In this document: positions 12,952 through 24,128 of the stretch, one piece after another
Position numbering within the stretch: position 1 is the stretch's first letter
Layout of the letters: every line of letters begins with the position of its first letter
Source of the DNA: Serratia sarumanii
GTDB taxonomy: Bacteria; Pseudomonadota; Gammaproteobacteria; Enterobacterales; Enterobacteriaceae
NCBI RefSeq assembly: GCF_029962605.1
Contig: NZ_CP124750.1
Span: 3,162,001-3,226,000, forward strand
Length of the DNA stretch: 64,000 bases
Reading direction: 5' to 3'
Translations under genes and position numbers: made by a program
Notes under the pieces: generated by a model
The model's input: only the letters and a program-made list of their open reading frames with translations
What the model was told of the DNA's origin: nothing
Database searches by the model: none

Positions 12952-13127
12952 ACCTGCAGCCCTTTACCGCCATGCTGATGTTCGCCTACGTGCTGTTGAT
13001 GGTGCCGCTGCTCTACATCATCGACAGCCGGCTGAGCGCCAGCAAACTGGTGCGCAAAGCCACACAAAACTTCATCATCATCGTGTTGACGCTACTGTTC
13101 TTCAGCGCGATGACGCTGCTGTATTGA
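12948..13127 (+). CDS. 59-residue two-helix membrane protein, coupled to the preceding small gene
   Basis: Starts at ATG 12948, overlapping the previous stop as ATGA. The sequence shows two hydrophobic segments, about residues 7-25 (AMLMFAYVLLMVPLLYII) and 39-58 (NFIIIVLTLLFFSAMTLLY), joined by a polar, positively charged loop (DSRLSASKLVRKATQ): a helical hairpin with no enzyme motif. The family is unknown to me. With its partner it forms a two-gene unit behind a Fur-box promoter, so a role in iron stress or transport accessory function is conceivable but not shown. Its 3' end overlaps by 36 bases the 3' end of the opposite-strand LuxR-type gene. Confidence 0.65.
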   Translation: MNLQPFTAMLMFAYVLLMVPLLYIIDSRLSASKLVRKATQNFIIIVLTLLFFSAMTLLY

Positions 13128-13778
13128 CGCCGCAGCGGTTCCGGCGCCAAGCCGCGCACCTGAACCGCACCCCTCTCCTCGCGCCCGCTCTACGGTTTTC
13201 AGGCCCCCTTGCCGCAGCCAGTGGTATAAATCGACGTTGCGCTTGAACCCCAGTTTTCTCATCGCTGCCTGTTTGTGGTTACTGACGGTCTTCACGCTCA
13301 ACGCCAAATAACGCGCTATCGCCGTCGGCGGCATTTCCCAGGCCAGATAGCGCATCACATCCTGTTCGCGGCGGGTAATGCGCTGCCGCTCGCACCAATA
13401 ACAGCGGCGCGCTTCGCTATCAGACGTCTGCAACGCCAGCGCCTGTTCCACCCGGCTCAGTACGAGGCCGATCGTATCGTTGCGAAAGATCACACCCGAT
13501 TCGCTGATGCAGCGCGGCTTGTCGCGCCAACGGGTGTCATCCGGCGCACGCAGAGAAAAATTAATCTGTTTACCGCCCTCCGCGGCACGCAGGCAGAATC
13601 GCGCCTGCCAATCCCTTTCCACGGACTGGAACACCATATCCGCCTGCGCCGCCGCGGCGGGATCCAGCAATCGAACCGGAATCGCCCTGCGGGCAAAATA
13701 AGACAGTAGCACCCGCTGCAGCCCTTCAATAAAAAAGCGGTCGTTATCGATGAACGCCAGGGACAGACTATTTCCCAT
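13092..13778 (-). CDS. LuxR-type helix-turn-helix transcriptional regulator
   Basis: 228 residues from the chosen ATG at 13778, which has GGAGAAGG at good spacing; a start at 13793 is also open. The C-terminal part carries a LuxR/FixJ-type HTH: ITRREQDVMRYLAWEMPPTAIA, then LSVKTVSNHKQAAMRKLGF and LYHWL, about residues 134-190. The N-terminal half begins LSLAFIDNDRFFIEGLQ like a receiver-type fold, but lacks a clear phospho-acceptor Asp arrangement. A polar tail of about 40 residues follows the HTH. The gene lies on the same strand just after the fimbrial operon (125-base gap from the adhesin), so control of fimbriae is plausible, as for other LuxR-like fimbrial regulators. The target is not shown. 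Confidence 0.85.
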   Translation of the reverse strand: MGNSLSLAFIDNDRFFIEGLQRVLLSYFARRAIPVRLLDPAAAAQADMVFQSVERDWQARFCLRAAEGGKQINFSLRAPDDTRWRDKPRCISESGVIFRNDTIGLVLSRVEQALALQTSDSEARRCYWCERQRITRREQDVMRYLAWEMPPTAIARYLALSVKTVSNHKQAAMRKLGFKRNVDLYHWLRQGGLKTVERARGEGCGSGARLGAGTAAASIQQRHRAEEQ

Positions 13779-13902
13779 CGGTACCTTCTCCATGAAATCT
13801 CCCTTTTCGCGCCCAGATGCACGTCATCCTTTCCGCTTATCAGCGCTAACAAGACCGATGACGGCCTTGCGGTGATACGCGGCCTTAAGCGCGACCAAGC
13901 GG

Positions 13903-14748
13903 CTACGGCAGCGCCAGAATGGCGACCGACTGCCCAGAGTAATCACCAGCTTTGACCGTTCCGGTCACGCCGAGCGTTGAAGTGACCGGCAACGTGATGC
14001 CGCTCGTGTCGGCAGTGAACGGATACCCCTGATTGCCCAACACGCCATTGATGCGCAGCGTGCTGTAGACGCCCGAGTTGTTGCCCAGATCCAAACGGCC
14101 GCTGCTGCCGGTGCGGATATACATGACGATATTCATCTTCTGCGAACACACCACCCGCAGACTGCCGCGCGCGGTATTACCCGCCAGTTCAGTGTCCTGC
14201 AGCACGCCATGGTTCAAATCGAGCTGCTGCTCATCAATGCCGCACACCCCGACCGGCGGCGGCGCGATGCCGCAGACGCTGCTGGGCATCAGGCGCGCAT
14301 TGCTCCCCGTTACCGCGGAACCGGAGCGCGTGTTGTAAAACAACCCGACGCACTCCTGAGTGATCGACTCCCCCACGTGCGAAGTGCTCCCCTGTATCGG
14401 CAACGGATAGATGCTTTGATAAAAACGGCTGAGTTCGCCCATCGTCGCCAATTGAGTAATTTGCGGATAACGCGTCGAGCCGACAACGTAGGCAGACGGT
14501 GACACCGAAGATGTGCCCCCGGTGTTGGTGCTGGTATGCCGGTGGTTAATGCCGATAGCGCAATTTGCCTGCTGATAGCAGGGATTGGGCGACAGGTCGT
14601 CCATATCCCAGCTTTCAAGCACGAACTTATAGCTAGCGTTGGAGGGAGAGCCGGTGCTTTGGGTGACGTACGAATAGATTTGTGCCGAGCACAGCCCCGG
14701 CGCCAGGCCAAGCAGTAGAGACATCCATCTGAAGTGAGCACGCTGCAT
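13903..14748 (-). CDS. Fimbrial tip adhesin, MrpH-like
   Basis: 281 residues, close in length to Proteus MrpH (275). Signal peptide residues 1 to about 22 (LLLGLAPGLCSA). The N-terminal adhesin domain contains H69 and H71 (INHRHT) and H124 (STSHVGES), matching the spacing of the three zinc-binding histidines known in MrpH; paired cysteines are present. The C-terminal about 110 residues form a pilin-like domain (CGIDEQQLDLNHG...) ending SGQSVAILALP, where a subunit donor strand would engage. It is the last structural gene of the operon, as mrpH is in mrpABCDEFGHJ. The likely role is receptor binding at the fimbrial tip, requiring zinc. The ligand is unknown. Confidence 0.85.
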   Translation of the reverse strand: MQRAHFRWMSLLLGLAPGLCSAQIYSYVTQSTGSPSNASYKFVLESWDMDDLSPNPCYQQANCAIGINHRHTSTNTGGTSSVSPSAYVVGSTRYPQITQLATMGELSRFYQSIYPLPIQGSTSHVGESITQECVGLFYNTRSGSAVTGSNARLMPSSVCGIAPPPVGVCGIDEQQLDLNHGVLQDTELAGNTARGSLRVVCSQKMNIVMYIRTGSSGRLDLGNNSGVYSTLRINGVLGNQGYPFTADTSGITLPVTSTLGVTGTVKAGDYSGQSVAILALP

Positions 14749-17043: not shown

Positions 17044-17802
17044 TTATGAAGCCGGTTTCTTTTCCGGCACCACTTTGCAACTGCCGCCGCTGCAGCTGAA
17101 ACTGAGCTGCGGCCGGCCGCCGTAGTCGTTGATATAGGTCAGCACCGGGCTGCCGCCCAGGGCCGCCGCGCTCACGGTCAGCCGCGCATTGCTCTTGGGC
17201 GCGATCATGAAGGGCTCGAAACCCTGCGCGCCTTCGCCGTGCTTTTTGCTCCCGGCATCGACAATGGTGATGTAATAAGGGGTCGGGTTATTGACCTGAT
17301 AGCCGTCTCCCTGCCGCGTCAGTGTCAGTTGCTCTTGCCACGGCGTCGCCATGTCGGCGCGGCTCGGCACGATCGCCGTCGGCCGGTAAAACAGCTTGAT
17401 GCGCGTTTGCAGCGCGATCTGCAGCGTGTTCGGTTTGTCGCTCTTCGGCGGGATCTCGCGCAAATTGAAGTAGTACAGGCTCTCGCGATCCTGCGGCAGC
17501 TGTTTGGCCGCCGGCAGCGCCTGAATCTTTATCTGGCTCGGTTTGCCCGGCTCGATGCGCTGCACCGGCGGCAGCACCACCAGCGGGCTCTGAATCTTGT
17601 TGCCCTGCTCGTCCTCCAGCCAACCCTGCGCCAGATACGGCAGCTGTTTGTTCTGGTTGCTGAGGTTCAGGCTGACCGAGCTCTGGCCGCCGTCAAAGAT
17701 CACCCGGGTGCGATCGAGCGCGATCGCCGCCGATGCCTGCTGCGACATCGCTGTGCTCAACAGGGCGATCGCCGCCGCGGTCTTCAGGGAAATGTTCTGC
17801 AT
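17044..17802 (-). CDS. Periplasmic fimbrial chaperone (PapD-like, MrpD type)
   Basis: 252 residues: signal peptide of about 25 residues (ALLSTAMSQQASA), then the two-immunoglobulin-fold chaperone. Visible hallmarks are the G1 strand region LQIALQTRIKLFYRPTAI with the conserved Arg/Lys pocket, and the family signature YYFNLREIPP (about residues 110-119). The chaperone completes the fold of each pilin by donor-strand complementation and hands it to the usher. The C-terminal tail has two cysteines (SCSGGSCK) that may pair. It follows the usher gene with a 33-base gap, as in mrpCD. Confidence 0.92.
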   Translation of the reverse strand: MQNISLKTAAAIALLSTAMSQQASAAIALDRTRVIFDGGQSSVSLNLSNQNKQLPYLAQGWLEDEQGNKIQSPLVVLPPVQRIEPGKPSQIKIQALPAAKQLPQDRESLYYFNLREIPPKSDKPNTLQIALQTRIKLFYRPTAIVPSRADMATPWQEQLTLTRQGDGYQVNNPTPYYITIVDAGSKKHGEGAQGFEPFMIAPKSNARLTVSAAALGGSPVLTYINDYGGRPQLSFSCSGGSCKVVPEKKPAS

Positions 17803-17835: not shown

Positions 17836-20361
17836 TTATTCAGCCGGGGCGAGCGGCCGGCAAGGCAGCAACAATGTGCGCATCAGCATGTCGGCCGGCA
17901 GCGAAGACGGCAGCTGTATTTGGCACTGTGCGGCACCATTCCAGTGGACCGTCATGGTTTCACCGGCGTTGATGCCGCTCAGGTAGACGCTGCCGCCGTC
18001 GTTGACGATGCCGGTTTCCTGTTTGCGGGCGTTCAACACCGTAGCGCCGAACGGCGGCGTACTGCCGTCCGCCAGTTTGACGATCGCCATTGCCTTCTCA
18101 CCGGCGATCACATCGAACTTGCGGTAGCCAATCGCCCCTTCCGTCAGGGTGGCCTGCACCACCGATCGGGTGGCCTCGGCGTTGTCTCCCAGCTTGTTCA
18201 GATCGATGCTGGCCTTGTTGCGGTAATAGCTGTTGACGTCCGCCACCACCGCCTTGCCGAAGCGGTTGGTGCTCACGGTGCTGCCGTAGCCGCGCACCGG
18301 TACCCCGGCTACGCCGTTGGTGTCCAGCAACAGGCGCGTACCGCCCATAACGGTAGAGCGATGCAGCGCGCCGCCTTCCTGCGTGACGGTCATCCCTCCC
18401 TGCGCGGACAGGCCAACGGCGCTGTAGCGCCCGGCCTGATAGCTGGCGTTGGCGCTCAGACGCGCCACGTCGCCCTCGTGGTTGTAGTAGCCGTTCAAAT
18501 TGGCGCCGCTACGCGCGCTGCCGGCGCTCACCTGATAGTTGTTGTGTTCGTCGACGCGGTTGTAGTACCCCACGCGATGAGTGTTGTCGTTGCGATTCAC
18601 CGTGGTGTTGTAGCTGAGAGTGGCACCATTGCCCCACGGCATTGACAGCGACAGATACATGCCGTCGTCGTTGGTCTCGTTGTAACGGTTGCGATAAGCC
18701 GACAACGACAGGCTCAGGTTTTTGAAGTCGCCGATGTCGAAATAGCGCGACGCCGTCAGGCTGTAACGGTCATTGGCCGGGCGATCCCAATAAGTCTGAT
18801 GGTTGTAGTTGAGGTAGGTGCTCAACCCCCAGTCGCGGAACTGCTTGTTAAAGGTGATGGTGTACATCTCCTTGTTGTTGCCGACCCGATTACCGTAATA
18901 ACGCGCGTCGAGGTATTCGCTCATGCTCATGTAGTCTTCTTGCGAGAAACGGTAGCCGGCGAAGGTGACCTGGCTGTCCAACTCATCGAAGGTTTTCGAA
19001 TAGCTCACCCGGTAAGAACCGCCGCTCAGCGTTTTTTCCTGCTGCGGCAGGCGCGCCCGCGATTGGGTGGCGTCGAACGACAGCGCGCCGAACATCATCA
19101 GATCGCGCCCCACGCCCAGCGAAAGGGCGTTATAATCGCCGCCCGCCAACGCGCCGCCATACAACGACCAGCCGTTGCTGATGCCCCATGAGAATTCGCC
19201 GGTGCCAAACAGCGGCCCGCGAGCGTGGTGTTGCCAGTCGGACGGCTTGCCCGCCGCCAGTTTGAAACGCCACGAGCCCGGGCGGGTCAGATACGGAATG
19301 CTGGCGGTGTTCATCTTGAACGCCTGTACGCTGCCGTCCTGTTCTTCCACCCGCACATCCAACTCGCCGGAGATGGCGTCATTGATGTCCTGAATACGGA
19401 ACGGCCCCGCCGCCACCTGGGTTTCATAAATGACCCGCCCCTGCTGACTGATGGTCACCTTGGCGTTGGTTTTGGCCACGCCGACCACCTCTGGCGCATA
19501 GCCGCGCAGGTTGGGCGGCAGCATATTGTCGTCGGAGACCAGACTCGCGCCTGAAAAACGGAAGCTCTCGAAAATGCCCGAATCCAAATAGTCTTCACCC
19601 AGCGTCAGGCGCGAACGCAGCGCGGGGATGGCGCGGTAGGCGTAATAGCGGCTCCACTCCAACTTCTTATCGGTAGGCTGCCCGACACCGGTTTGATGGT
19701 TAAGCTGCCCCTGCCAGTCGGCGCGCAGACGCCAGGCGCCGAGATTGGCGCCGGCGGTACCGTTGCCGCTGACGCTATACTCGCGAGTGCCCTCCTTTTG
19801 CTGATGCCGGCTTTGAGCATTGAGGTTATAGTCGAACAACAACCCCGGAATGCCCTCATCCCAGCGCGACGGCGGATCCCAGTCTTCCGAGCTGTACTCC
19901 ATATAAGCCTGCGGCACGCTCAGATAGAGCGCAGCCGTCGCAAGATCGCCGCGCGACGCCATGCCCTTCAGGCTGGATTCGTCCAGACACTCACCCTGAT
20001 GCCACCAGCTGAGCGATCGCACCATCTCTTGCTTCAGCCCCAATTGTTCGACCAACGCTTTGGTGATGCAGGCCCGGCTGCCGTCCGGATCGCTGTCCGG
20101 CGGATAAAACGATATTTTTTGCTCCGGCAGTTCGTTTTTATTGATATGAACCACCATGCTGTAACTCCCCGGCATAATGTAGCCGCTGCGGGAAAATTGG
20201 CTTAGGTCGATATTTTTCCGATCGTTAACATCCAGAATGTCGGTATTAAATTGAATACCGTCTTCAGCGTAAACACGCGTTGATGAACTTCCCAGTGCCA
20301 GCGTGATACATAACCCCAAAACCTGAAATCGAAATAGCTTCCCAGCAGGTGATAACATCAT
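17836..20361 (-). CDS. Fimbrial outer-membrane usher (FimD/PapC/MrpC family)
   Basis: 841 residues from ATG 20361 (MMLSPAGKLF), the usual usher size; the frame is open further upstream, but that part overlaps the preceding subunit gene and lacks usher similarity. AGGGAT precedes the start. Signal peptide to about residue 30, N-terminal chaperone-binding domain (GIQFNTDILDVNDRKNIDLSQF), then the 24-strand barrel and plug, for example WRFKLAAGKPSDWQ, TLSGGSYRVSYSKTF and GYYNRVDEHNNYQVSAG. The C-terminal domains contain FGATVLNARKQETGIVNDGG and a final cysteine pair. It secretes and orders the fimbrial subunits. Confidence 0.95.
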   Translation of the reverse strand: MMLSPAGKLFRFQVLGLCITLALGSSSTRVYAEDGIQFNTDILDVNDRKNIDLSQFSRSGYIMPGSYSMVVHINKNELPEQKISFYPPDSDPDGSRACITKALVEQLGLKQEMVRSLSWWHQGECLDESSLKGMASRGDLATAALYLSVPQAYMEYSSEDWDPPSRWDEGIPGLLFDYNLNAQSRHQQKEGTREYSVSGNGTAGANLGAWRLRADWQGQLNHQTGVGQPTDKKLEWSRYYAYRAIPALRSRLTLGEDYLDSGIFESFRFSGASLVSDDNMLPPNLRGYAPEVVGVAKTNAKVTISQQGRVIYETQVAAGPFRIQDINDAISGELDVRVEEQDGSVQAFKMNTASIPYLTRPGSWRFKLAAGKPSDWQHHARGPLFGTGEFSWGISNGWSLYGGALAGGDYNALSLGVGRDLMMFGALSFDATQSRARLPQQEKTLSGGSYRVSYSKTFDELDSQVTFAGYRFSQEDYMSMSEYLDARYYGNRVGNNKEMYTITFNKQFRDWGLSTYLNYNHQTYWDRPANDRYSLTASRYFDIGDFKNLSLSLSAYRNRYNETNDDGMYLSLSMPWGNGATLSYNTTVNRNDNTHRVGYYNRVDEHNNYQVSAGSARSGANLNGYYNHEGDVARLSANASYQAGRYSAVGLSAQGGMTVTQEGGALHRSTVMGGTRLLLDTNGVAGVPVRGYGSTVSTNRFGKAVVADVNSYYRNKASIDLNKLGDNAEATRSVVQATLTEGAIGYRKFDVIAGEKAMAIVKLADGSTPPFGATVLNARKQETGIVNDGGSVYLSGINAGETMTVHWNGAAQCQIQLPSSLPADMLMRTLLLPCRPLAPAE

Positions 20362-21059: not shown

Positions 21060-21584
21060 TTATTGGTAAGCCAGTTTGAAATCGGCTACGGCGGTGAAAT
21101 CACCTGGAACCACGGTGGCGGAAGCGCCGTCACCCTGCAGGTAAGCGGCGAAGCGCAGCGTGTTGTTGCCGTCGTTCAACGTCTGAGGAGCCGTTGCGGT
21201 GCCCAGTTTGATCGGATTGCTCGCCATGTCGGTAATGGCGATGCTGGCGCCGCTGGCGGTACCGATGATGCCCAGCAGATCAGGATTCGCGGCAGAAGCC
21301 TTGCCGTCAAAAGTGGTGGTGACGGTTTTCAGCGTGGAGGTGTCGCACTGTTCCAGTTTAATATCGAACTGACGCGGCGCTGATTTGCCGCCATTTTTCA
21401 GCGCGACATTGGAAATCTGCCCCATTTCCACAGTTTGATCGGCCGATTCAGGCGCAATGGAGCAAGGAGCATCAATAATAGAACCGGTAAAAGTCACTTT
21501 GCCATGACCCTGATCGGCGGCATTCGCCAGAGAAGACACGCCAAACGCCAGAACAGTTGCCAGCATGATTTTGTTCAGTTTCAT
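21060..21584 (-). CDS. Major fimbrial subunit, MrpA-like
   Basis: 174 residues, typical of class I pilins. Signal peptide residues 1-22 (MKLNKIMLATVLAFGVSSLANA), mature start ADQGHGKVTFTGSI, paired cysteines in DAPCSIAPES and LEQCDTS, and C-terminal zipper FTAVADFKLAYQ. It is the first gene of the minus-strand fimbrial operon and has its own hairpin after it, as expected for an abundant shaft subunit. The order A-B-usher-chaperone-minor subunits-adhesin matches the Proteus MR/P locus, but no mrpI-type recombinase gene is seen. Confidence 0.92.
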   Translation of the reverse strand: MKLNKIMLATVLAFGVSSLANAADQGHGKVTFTGSIIDAPCSIAPESADQTVEMGQISNVALKNGGKSAPRQFDIKLEQCDTSTLKTVTTTFDGKASAANPDLLGIIGTASGASIAITDMASNPIKLGTATAPQTLNDGNNTLRFAAYLQGDGASATVVPGDFTAVADFKLAYQ

Positions 21585-22359
21585 AATTCACTTATTCCTT
21601 TAATATTGTGTAAAAAGCGCAGGATTGCTCCCGTTCCTTTAACAGCCATTTATACATTCCAGAATGAATAACGGTATTACTCTTCGCCAAAAAGAAAGAC
21701 GTCGCAATTGTGAAATCGCGACTGTCAATTCATTACCACCCAATTAGGGTTATAAACGAATAGCTAAACAGGCAAAAGAAAAACACGCTTAAATAAAGAT
21801 CGTCTAAAGACTTACCCTTCAGAGATATTTAAAATAAGTTCCTTCTTACCCGCTCATTTTGGCCTGGTTATTCTTACAAAAACACTCACACCTTGGAAAG
21901 CCATTTTAATCAAAACCAATAAATACAAAATATAAGCCCAAAAACCACGAGACGAATATATTTTTGCGAGACAACAGATCGTAAAAGCAATAACACCAGT
22001 CAATTGTATCGAAAAACATATTTTCCACGACATTAACGATCGCCATTTTGCTATTTGCGTTATAATGCGCCGAGAAAGAGAAGGAAGACTTAACGATCCG
22101 AACAGGTGAAAACCAGGCTCGGAAGTACACCATGGAGCAAAACAATGAAATACAGCCAATACACACAGCCTGCCGGGCCCCCGGCAACGGCATTCTCCAT
22201 CCTGCCCCTTGCGCGCCGCCGGGTTATAGCGGCGAAAATATCAGGTTCAGACGGCCGTCCGGGAATAGCTCAGGAGCGTCTTGTCGGCAACCGGCACTAT
22301 TCTCTGACCCATCTTTTACCGCTATATCAAAACTCACCTGAAGTTTAAGGGAGGCTTAC
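21585..22359. other. Regulatory spacer between the fimbrial operon and the PapI-like gene
   Basis: About 775 bases, AT-rich for this genome, separating two divergent transcription units. Open frames are present (such as 21854-22159 minus and 22106-22348 plus), but none has a recognisable family, and I do not call them genes. It contains exactly four GATC sites, described separately. The last 250 bases before the PapI-like gene are richer in G/C and could be a long leader or a small unrecognised gene. Confidence 0.7.
21798..22098. promoter_or_regulatory. Four GATC sites, all within ACGATC: putative Dam/Lrp/PapI phase-variation switch
   Basis: GATC occurs at 21798, 21977, 22038 and 22095 and nowhere else in the 775-base spacer. 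Each is part of ACGATC: the first two on the minus strand, the last two on the plus strand. ACGATC is the core to which PapI directs Lrp in the E. coli pap switch, where Dam methylation of two GATC sites sets ON or OFF states. The adjacent PapI-like gene makes the parallel strong. The spacings (179, 61 and 57 bases; 118 between the second and fourth) differ from the 102 bases in pap. Confidence 0.65.
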
Positions 22360-22632
22360 ATGGCAAAACGCATCTCAAAACAACAAGAATTGCAGAACCT
22401 GCAGCAACATTTACTCACGACGCTACACAACCTGTGCCCTTCAGCCAGGGAAACGCCGCCGCCGCCCCCCGGCGAATGGCCCACCACGCGCCAATTGGCC
22501 GAGTCCAACGACTTGACGATTTATCAGGCGCGCAATTTGCTGCTGAGCCTGGCGGGCAAGGGAAAAGTGCTGGTCACCCAAGGCCCTGTCAATAACTCAC
22601 TGCGCTGGTATCCTTCGACTCACCACTCCTGA
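22360..22632 (+). CDS. PapI/FaeA-like fimbrial switch regulator
   Basis: 90 residues; GGGAGG lies six bases before the ATG at 22360. Residues about 42-85 (TTRQLAESNDLTIYQARNLL, then LAGKGKVLV and LRWYPS) match the winged helix of PapI/FaeA, where [20 protein letters not shown] and a final YWF/RWY are typical. The extra 40-residue N-terminus has a proline run (PPPPP). PapI proteins raise the affinity of Lrp for ACGATC sites and flip pap-type fimbrial promoters. The divergent orientation to the fimbrial operon is the same as papI relative to papBA. No PapB homologue is recognisable. Confidence 0.75.
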   Translation: MAKRISKQQELQNLQQHLLTTLHNLCPSARETPPPPPGEWPTTRQLAESNDLTIYQARNLLLSLAGKGKVLVTQGPVNNSLRWYPSTHHS

Positions 22633-22694
22633 CGACGCCATTTTCTTGTCGGCGGCCGTTCAATCGGCGCCGGCAGTTTCCCGATAATACACGG

Positions 22695-24128
22695 TTAACC
22701 TTTCCTCTCTCGCCTCATCCGCGGATATTTCCACAGCCAGCGCCCGCTGACCATGCGCCAATAGAACAAGGCGCCGCGCACTGCCCAATCGAGGAACATC
22801 CCCAACCAGACGCCCACCACGCCCATGCCCAGTTCAATGCCCAGCGCGTAGCCCGCCACCACGCGGCAGCCCCACATGCCCAGCATCGTCACCCACATGG
22901 CAAAGCGGGCATCGCGCGCGCCTTTCAGCCCGGCAGGCAACACCCAGGAAGCGGCCCAGATCGGCATAAAGGCGGCGTTGAGCCAAATCAGGGTTTTCAC
23001 CACCGATTTCACGTCATCCTGCGAGGTATAAAACGCGGCGAATACCCCGGCCAGCGGCGCCGTGCCCCAGGCGATGGCGGTTAGCCCAAGGGTAGACAGC
23101 CAGAAAATATGGCGCAGCTGCCGCTCCGCCTGGCCGATCTCGCCTTTGCCGAGCCGCCGGCCGACGATGATGGTCGAGGCCGATCCCAACGCGTTGCCCG
23201 GCAAGTTGATCAACGAAGCGATGGAGAAGGCGATGAAGTTACCGGCGATCACGTTGGTGCCCATGCCGGCGACGAACATCTGCGTCAACAGCTTGCCGCC
23301 GTTGAACAATACCGATTCAACGCTGGCGGGAATGCCGATCCCCAGCACTTCCCACAGGATGCTCATCTTCAGCGGCGTGAAATAGCTTTTCAGCGTGATG
23401 TGCAGCGCCGGGTTAAAACCGATCGCCAGCACATAGAGAATGGCGATGGCGCCGATATAGCGGGAAATCGTCAGCCCCAGCCCGGCGCCGACGAAGCCCA
23501 GCCCGTGCCAACCCAGCATGCCGTAAATCAGGATGCTGCTGATGATGATATTGAGGATATTCATGCCGCCATTGATCAGCAGCGGGATCTTGGTGTTGCC
23601 CGCGCCGCGCAGGGCGCCGCTGCCGATCAGCGCAATCGCCGCCGCCGGGTAGCTCCACACCGTGGTCTGCAGGTAAGAGAGCGCCAGCGCTTTCACTTCC
23701 GGCGAGGCCGCGCCGGCGATCACATCGATGATCGGTTCGCCCGCCAGATGAATGCCCGCCGCCAACAGCAGCGCCACGCCGGTCATCAAGACCAGCGACT
23801 GACGCGCCGCCGCCCGCGCGCGCCTGCGATCCCGCTTGCCGAGGCTGAAGGCCACCACCACGGTGGTGCCGAGATCCACCGCGGCGAAAAAGGCGATGAT
23901 CACCATGTTGAAGCTGTCCGCCAGCCCCACCCCGGCCATCGCCTCTTTGCCGAGCCAGCTCACCAGAAAGGTGCTCAGCACCCCCATCAGCAGCACGCAG
24001 GCGTTCTCCAGGAAGATCGGCACCGCCAGCGGCGTGATCTCGCGCCAGAACAGCACGCGGTAGCTTTTCCGTTTGGCGTACCAGGGCGTATTTTCCACGC
24101 GCTGACGCAGGGCGGCATACAGGTTCAA
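22695..24128 (-). CDS. MATE-family efflux transporter, YeeO/EmmdR type
   Basis: 477 residues with about twelve hydrophobic segments in two related halves, starting FWREITPLAVPIFLENACVLLMG. The duplicated MATE pattern is visible in SWLGKEAMAGVGLADSFN and, in the second half, VAGMGTNVIAGNFIAFSI. It is an inner-membrane antiporter that exports drugs, flavins or similar cations in exchange for H+ or Na+. The sequence recalls the YeeO/EmmdR subgroup; in E. coli yeeO lies among the asn tRNA genes, whereas here it is about 20 kb from them. Its substrate cannot be read from the sequence. Confidence 0.85.
   Translation of the reverse strand: MNLYAALRQRVENTPWYAKRKSYRVLFWREITPLAVPIFLENACVLLMGVLSTFLVSWLGKEAMAGVGLADSFNMVIIAFFAAVDLGTTVVVAFSLGKRDRRRARAAARQSLVLMTGVALLLAAGIHLAGEPIIDVIAGAASPEVKALALSYLQTTVWSYPAAAIALIGSGALRGAGNTKIPLLINGGMNILNIIISSILIYGMLGWHGLGFVGAGLGLTISRYIGAIAILYVLAIGFNPALHITLKSYFTPLKMSILWEVLGIGIPASVESVLFNGGKLLTQMFVAGMGTNVIAGNFIAFSIASLINLPGNALGSASTIIVGRRLGKGEIGQAERQLRHIFWLSTLGLTAIAWGTAPLAGVFAAFYTSQDDVKSVVKTLIWLNAAFMPIWAASWVLPAGLKGARDARFAMWVTMLGMWGCRVVAGYALGIELGMGVVGVWLGMFLDWAVRGALFYWRMVSGRWLWKYPRMRRERKG

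Follow-up and report, generated by a model that had tools for sequence, protein, structure and literature searches.

The window, the 64,000-nucleotide stretch of the Serratia sarumanii genome analysed here, carries a fimbrial operon on the minus strand and, across a divergent gap, a small regulator gene on the plus strand. We refer to this arrangement as locus A. Its genes and control region, in window positions, are:

13092..13793, minus strand: LuxR-type regulator gene at the 3' end of the operon (GerE, 45.2 bits)
13903..14748, minus strand: MrpH-type tip adhesin gene (PF24222, 146.8 bits, and PF24223, 74.9 bits, both over their cut-offs; 'Fimbrial adhesin' 6y4f, 102.2 bits)
17044..17802, minus strand: periplasmic chaperone gene (PapD_N, 132.4 bits)
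17836..20334, minus strand: outer-membrane usher gene of the Stf-type subfamily (NF011812, 1204.7 bits, cut-off 972; the start codon is our choice)
21060..21584, minus strand: major pilin gene, MrpA/StfA-like (Pfam Fimbrial, 66.1 bits; best NCBIfam model StfA at 98.4 bits, below its cut-off of 267)
21585..22359: divergent intergenic control region of 775 bp between the pilin gene and the PapI-like gene
22360..22632, plus strand: PapI/FaeA-like regulator gene, 90 aa (Pfam FaeA, 20.4 bits, cut-off 20.7; a family profile leads to PefI and PapI)

The pilins, Stf-type usher, chaperone and MrpH-type adhesin agree with the initial annotation of an MR/P-type operon and place the fimbriae with the MR/P and Stf types. 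A gene of the GerE/LuxR type ends locus A in the window and, at the same place, in a copy on an S. marcescens plasmid record (NZ_OY970407.1; L050:4217-4918). This plasmid copy lies near transposase genes and is 94.4% identical to the window over the part compared. A second fimbrial locus of the genome, locus B, also ends in such a gene (L103:14632-15297), and in both loci it occupies the place of mrpJ in mrp.

A single-sequence PDB search with the PapI-like protein returned nothing related, and PHROGs yielded no more than a weak, unrelated match. A profile built from 31 relatives ranked PefI (2jt1, E 3.2e-4) and PapI (2htj, E 1.5e-3) as the top two of 177,635 PDB sequences, and FaeA was matched by 20 of the 31 relatives at E 0.01. 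The profile search thus supports the annotated PapI-family gene divergent from the fimbrial operon. A PF04703 search of 295 genomes of the order gave matches in 40, mostly in frames of >200 aa unlike PapI.

The 5.19-Mb genome also encodes Dam (322.7 bits) and an Lrp that, by our reading, differs from E. coli Lrp at three of 162 aligned residues. PapB (PF03333) had no match in the whole genome, with the E. coli control positive. Open reading frames in the gap had no meaningful Pfam match, and the first gene past the gap is the pilin gene, not a papB-like gene.

The intergenic gap and its conserved GATC pair

The gap contains exactly four GATC sites (21798, 21977, 22038 and 22095), and each is extended to ACGATC, on the minus strand at 21798 and 21977 and on the plus strand at 22038 and 22095; both observations had been made in the initial annotation, which extended the switch to 22632, the end of the PapI-like gene. 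The GATC count is unremarkable when set against 20,000 dinucleotide shuffles of the gap (mean 2.1, with four or more in 16%), while four or more ACGATC arose in 0.005% of 20,000 such shuffles, a test devised post hoc. Distances between the sites are 57, 61, 118, 179, 240 and 297 bp, and no pair lies at 102 bp among all site pairs within the gap.

The DNA fold of the gap was better than those of its 20 shuffles (z -3.43). Downstream of the putative pilin promoter and ahead of the pilin start there is a terminator-like hairpin (window 21701-21722, minus strand); by eye, its conservation does not extend to every relative. One locally conserved minus-strand open reading frame, 21854-22159, was considered as a small membrane protein and rejected. 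It has stops in relatives, shows no excess of third-codon-position changes and is thus not conserved as coding sequence, and its weak Pfam match is to an unrelated family and under the cut-off. By this comparison the locally conserved block left of 21977 is non-coding. The plus-strand frame 22106-22348 was likewise set aside, having no Pfam match and being crossed by indels in the alignment of locus copies.

We aligned nine copies of locus A, comprising the window, seven loci from genomes of the genus with close relatives of the PapI-like protein (L022-L028, of which L024 is S. ureilytica, L027 S. nevei and L028 S. marcescens 106R), and the plasmid copy L050. The elements of the gap, with their conservation in these rows, are:

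21798..21801: accessory GATC, not conserved (GATC in 2/9 rows)
21870..21880, minus strand: putative extended -10 of the pilin promoter, TTTGTAAGAAT on the minus strand and ATTCTTACAAA on the plus strand
21971..21986: invariant 16-bp block ACAACAGATCGTAAAA, identical in 9/9 rows, holding the pilin-proximal GATC (21977-21980) with ACGATC on the minus strand
22038..22041: pilin-distal GATC, 61 bp from the proximal one and in the -35 slot of the putative papI-like promoter, invariant in 9/9 rows with variable flanks
22061..22066, plus strand: TATAAT, putative -10 of the papI-like gene, its position kept in loci A, B and C
22095..22098: accessory GATC, not conserved (GATC in 2/9 aligned rows)

GATC is invariant at 21977 and 22038 alone, and the 61-bp spacing of these two sites is kept in all nine rows. 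The accessory site at 22095 is missing from L022, a locus with a 97% identical PapI-like protein; in L025, a third row, an ACGATC lies close by, a few bases from the 22095 position. Around the distal GATC the flanks read AC, AT or TT before the site and GC, GT or TC after it. A plus-strand ACGATC at 22038 is unique to the window among the nine rows, and L025 has a minus-strand one. Of the 85 tetramers between 21987 and 22075 only eight are invariant, among them the GATC at 22038 and all three that make up TATAAT. The four-site set of ACGATC motifs, put forward in the initial annotation as PapI-dependent Lrp cores, is thereby reduced to two conserved GATCs, one of them (21977) with a conserved ACGATC.

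These elements form a cassette of fixed geometry: the putative pilin -10, 106-107 bp, GATC, 60-61 bp, GATC, 23-24 bp, and the TAYAAT of the PapI-like gene. In the window the distal GATC begins 23 bp before TATAAT. The leftmost element, ATTSTKRCAAA at 106-107 bp left of the proximal GATC, was defined after inspection. The fetched loci contain 76 distinct pattern matches; 44 of these carry the element, many of the 44 being orthologues of each other. All 44 modules that bear it are PapI-linked, no PapI-linked module examined lacks it, and none of the other 32 matches has the element. This count covers the fetched loci, and unfetched PapI-linked modules (e.g. G169:C11) fall outside it. Read along the pilin strand it is TTTGYMASAAT, a possible extended -10, and it lies 190-192 bp from the papI-like -10 in 44/44 modules. 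Because a sigma-70 consensus scan returned no promoter in 21560-22700, both promoter assignments are inferred from conservation alone.

Both boxes read CGATC on the minus strand, i.e. in direct orientation, in 42 of the 44 modules. ACGATC is present at the proximal site in 43/44 and at the distal site in three (L002, L025 and L106). Shuffling the gap 20,000 times never produced the full module, whereas the GATC pair alone arose in 1.1% of shuffles.

Distribution of the module in the genus and beyond

Two further PapI-like genes are encoded in the window's genome, at locus B (C1:1652642) and locus C (C1:4780310). A GATC pair at 60 bp was present in 13 of 13 B loci, ten from the genus and three (L003, L005 and L009) from three other genera; these were grouped by the protein N-terminus after the pairs had been seen. 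For C, 20 loci were fetched as 10-kb stretches, and all except L089 had a pair at 61 bp. The remaining seven of the 27 C-type genes were covered by the genus scan. By eye, loci A, B and C have little other sequence in common here beyond the named elements.

The gene content around the switch differs among these loci. At locus B (L103:4370-6261) two genes come after the PapI-like gene on its strand, the first for a 343-aa protein that has a Fimbrial domain at its C-terminus and is possibly an adhesin, the second for a further pilin-like protein, an order by which the switch may divide shaft genes from tip genes. At locus C (L091:5296-6839) the switch is separated from the PapI-like gene by genes for a 137-aa protein without a Pfam match and for a 375-aa FKBP-type isomerase. 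The B operon likewise encodes an FKBP-type protein (L103:13247-14635).

We scanned 30 genomes of the genus with GATC-N56/57-GATC-N19/20-TAYAAT, the right-hand part of the cassette. The scan gave 52 matches in 26 genomes, and the reversed control gave none. All but three of the matches (49/52) have a PapI-like match on their own strand 95-1983 bp downstream, and the remaining three appear to be a single sequence common to three genomes. The window's genome has three matches, at its three fimbrial loci A, B and C. At least one PapI-like protein was matched in 28 of the 30 genomes, in one of them with stops, and the module was present at 49 of the 57 PapI-like places of the genus. The pairing of an MR/P-type operon with a Pap-type Dam/Lrp switch had been called unusual; with PapI-like genes in 28/30 genomes and the pair at 49/57 places, PapI-type pairing is not exceptional in this genus.

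The eight places without the module are varied. Two (L104 and L108) carry inverted GATC boxes at a spacing of 71 bp, three (L105, L109 and L110) have a single GATC, and L089 (G172) has no pair at 60-61 bp. The PapI-like frame of G175 contains stops. At G159:C2 (L107) two pilin matches lie on the strand of the PapI-like gene, and no divergent pilin was found.

A scan of 392 genomes of the family found matches in 54 genomes, with seven matches in the reversed control. Outside the genus there were 52 matches, of which three were recognised as PapI-linked (G016, G032:C15 and, by likeness, G468), and many of the other 49 look like coding sequence. Set against these 52 matches and three recognised linkages, the seven of the reversed control show it to be lenient and to understate the chance rate, which is nearer about one match per eight genomes. 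The three non-PapI matches in the 30 genus genomes fit that rate.

Among 15 PapI-like places in other genera, a 60-61 bp pair was present in four (L003, L005, L009 and L012). In L012 the proximal GATCGT and other features are absent, and in L009 no TAYAAT lies at 23-24 bp. Two loci, L117 and L119, have a PapI-like gene and a divergent pilin with no GATC in the gap. By these counts the module belongs to the genus and a few relatives rather than to PapI-like genes at large.

A 70/71-bp version of the pattern matched in 23 genomes (control 8), including 4/4 genomes of genus g138; the g138 matches are of nearly the same sequence, and PapI linkage was shown for G138 (L113) alone. The 71-bp pairs of L104, L108 and L113 are about one helical turn longer than the 61-bp class. 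In all three a TATAAT or TACAAT lies 23 bp after the start of the distal GATC, and the boxes are inverted in L104 and L108.

A candidate switch compared with known systems

The relatives of pap include sfa, daa, fae and pef. In pap the GATC boxes are inverted, and an ACGATC core was reportedly found at both pap sites by Hernday et al. 2003. According to PMC2909390, pap and related operons combine two GATC boxes at 102 bp with a PapI-like protein, and the 102-bp pair is the signature of Lrp/Dam-controlled fimbriae. The pap GATCs are placed inside Lrp sites 2 and 5 of six in a control region of 416 bp (PMC9820224), a region given as 330 bp elsewhere (PMC11316696). In pap, repression comes from Lrp bound at the proximal sites and activation from PapI-Lrp at the distal ones, and each state shields one GATC from Dam (PMC11316696).

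Locus A resembles pap in its divergent small PapI-family gene, in the two conserved GATCs between regulator and operon, and in the presence of Dam and Lrp. It differs in the orientation of the boxes, which are direct here and inverted in pap, and in the conservation of ACGATC, here at the proximal site only. No papB-like gene is present, neither first in the operon nor in the genome; the distal GATC lies in the -35 slot of the papI-like promoter; and the fimbriae are of the MR/P-Stf type. The spacing is also different, 60-61 bp here against 102 bp in pap (PMC2909390). Of the Pap-type switch originally proposed, the PapI-family gene, the conserved GATC pair, Dam and Lrp are retained, and the 61-bp direct layout and the missing PapB depart from it. 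With no pair at 102 bp, we do not file the locus as a Pap-type switch. By its parts, it would be expected to work like one, and the compact 61-bp layout suggests kinship, in a shorter form, with the on/off switch of E. coli P pili. Given the spacing, the direct boxes and the missing PapB, the rules of pap cannot simply be carried over. A scan by the 102-bp pair, the signature in print, would miss these loci.

We regard it as probable that the region is a bidirectional Dam/Lrp/PapI-type fimbrial switch built on the two GATCs 61 bp apart at 21977 and 22038; for these two sites, we infer binding, methylation and bistability from sequence. Lrp would bind at the GATCs and shield them from Dam, and the PapI-like protein would direct Lrp to the proximal ACGATC, turning on the pilin promoter ~100 bp away. 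The amount of PapI-like protein made would be set at the distal GATC, in the -35 slot, by Lrp or by methylation, and methylation would pass the state on when cells divide, so that ON and OFF cells arise. With the distal GATC placed in the papI-like promoter, production of the regulator itself would depend on the methylation state. If Lrp sites lie ~30 bp apart, footprints at a 61-bp pair would overlap, and exclusion would be either steric or replaced by joint coverage of both GATCs. More tentatively, and with some doubt, the logic may differ from that of pap. With such Lrp spacing the two GATCs, in overlapping footprints or even within one, would be co-protected and not shielded in turn, the distal one would gate the papI-like gene, and PapI-Lrp would activate the pilin gene without PapB, all in one complex and at three loci. 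If so, one compact nucleoprotein complex would switch two genes, in parallel at three fimbrial loci.

The same proteins could act without memory. Regulation of both promoters by Lrp and the PapI-like protein, with no heritable methylation state, would suit the proximal site, which is kept in 9/9 rows as the longer block ACAACAGATCGTAAAA, and PapI-like loci with a GATC-free gap do exist (L117 and L119). At the distal site, however, the flanks vary while the GATC stays, which fits selection for a Dam site, and we think regulation of this kind unlikely. If methylation does matter, the partner of Dam need not be Lrp. SeqA and HdfR are other Dam-partner proteins, the systems of interest being agn43, gtr and std, and in agn43 and gtr, which are under Dam/OxyR control, promoter GATCs are likewise the presumed methylation memory. 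OxyR, SeqA or HdfR could act here with the PapI-like gene as a bystander, and Dam/OxyR switches do exist in enterobacteria (PMC2909390). Against this, the pair tracks PapI-like genes (49/52 matches), unlike the sites of agn43 and gtr, and the partner is presumably Lrp; a different Dam partner seems very improbable.

The structural genes raise the question of inversion. Like mrp, locus A combines an MrpH-type adhesin with usher, chaperone and pilins and ends in a regulator gene, here LuxR-type rather than mrpJ, and the mrp operon of P. mirabilis is switched by a 252-bp invertible element and the MrpI recombinase (PMC9820224). The genome does hold two recombinases of FimB/FimE size (183 and 182 aa), and these flank another fimbrial operon with an usher (L217; G000:C1:4043000-4054500), which makes an inversion-type fimbrial locus in the same genome probable. 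At locus A neither an invertible element nor MrpI was seen. The stretch 21400-22700 has no inverted repeat of switch size, the best being 13 nt with 85% match, and of the 13 integrase-domain hits in the genome, two of which are on another contig, none comes closer than 200 kb to A, B or C. The initial remark that no MrpI recombinase was in view is borne out, and we give practically no credence to promoter inversion by an MrpI/FimB-type enzyme. An ordinary divergent promoter region with chance GATCs would agree with a GATC count that is not high and with two of four sites being unconserved, but it would leave a spacing fixed in three diverged loci and a pattern linked to PapI-like genes; we consider it extremely improbable.

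For usher and chaperone the top-scoring models are those of Stf and Ste, a likeness to the Stf/Ste fimbriae of Salmonella, and stf is not known to be under PapI/GATC control. Among the matches listed from the open-licence literature (titles and parts of abstracts), there was no earlier report of PapI-type control in Serratia, though one could exist. The module predicts which GATCs matter in methylation reads of the genus. It also suggests that three such switches, served by a single Dam and a single Lrp and lacking PapB, may operate in one genome alongside a probable inversion-type fimbrial switch. The natural variants, with spacings of 60, 61 and 71 bp, a single GATC or none, offer material on the effects of spacing and orientation on switching. 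One locus of another genus (L122/L215), left out of the evidence above, has an inverted pair 101 bp apart upstream of a pilin gene.
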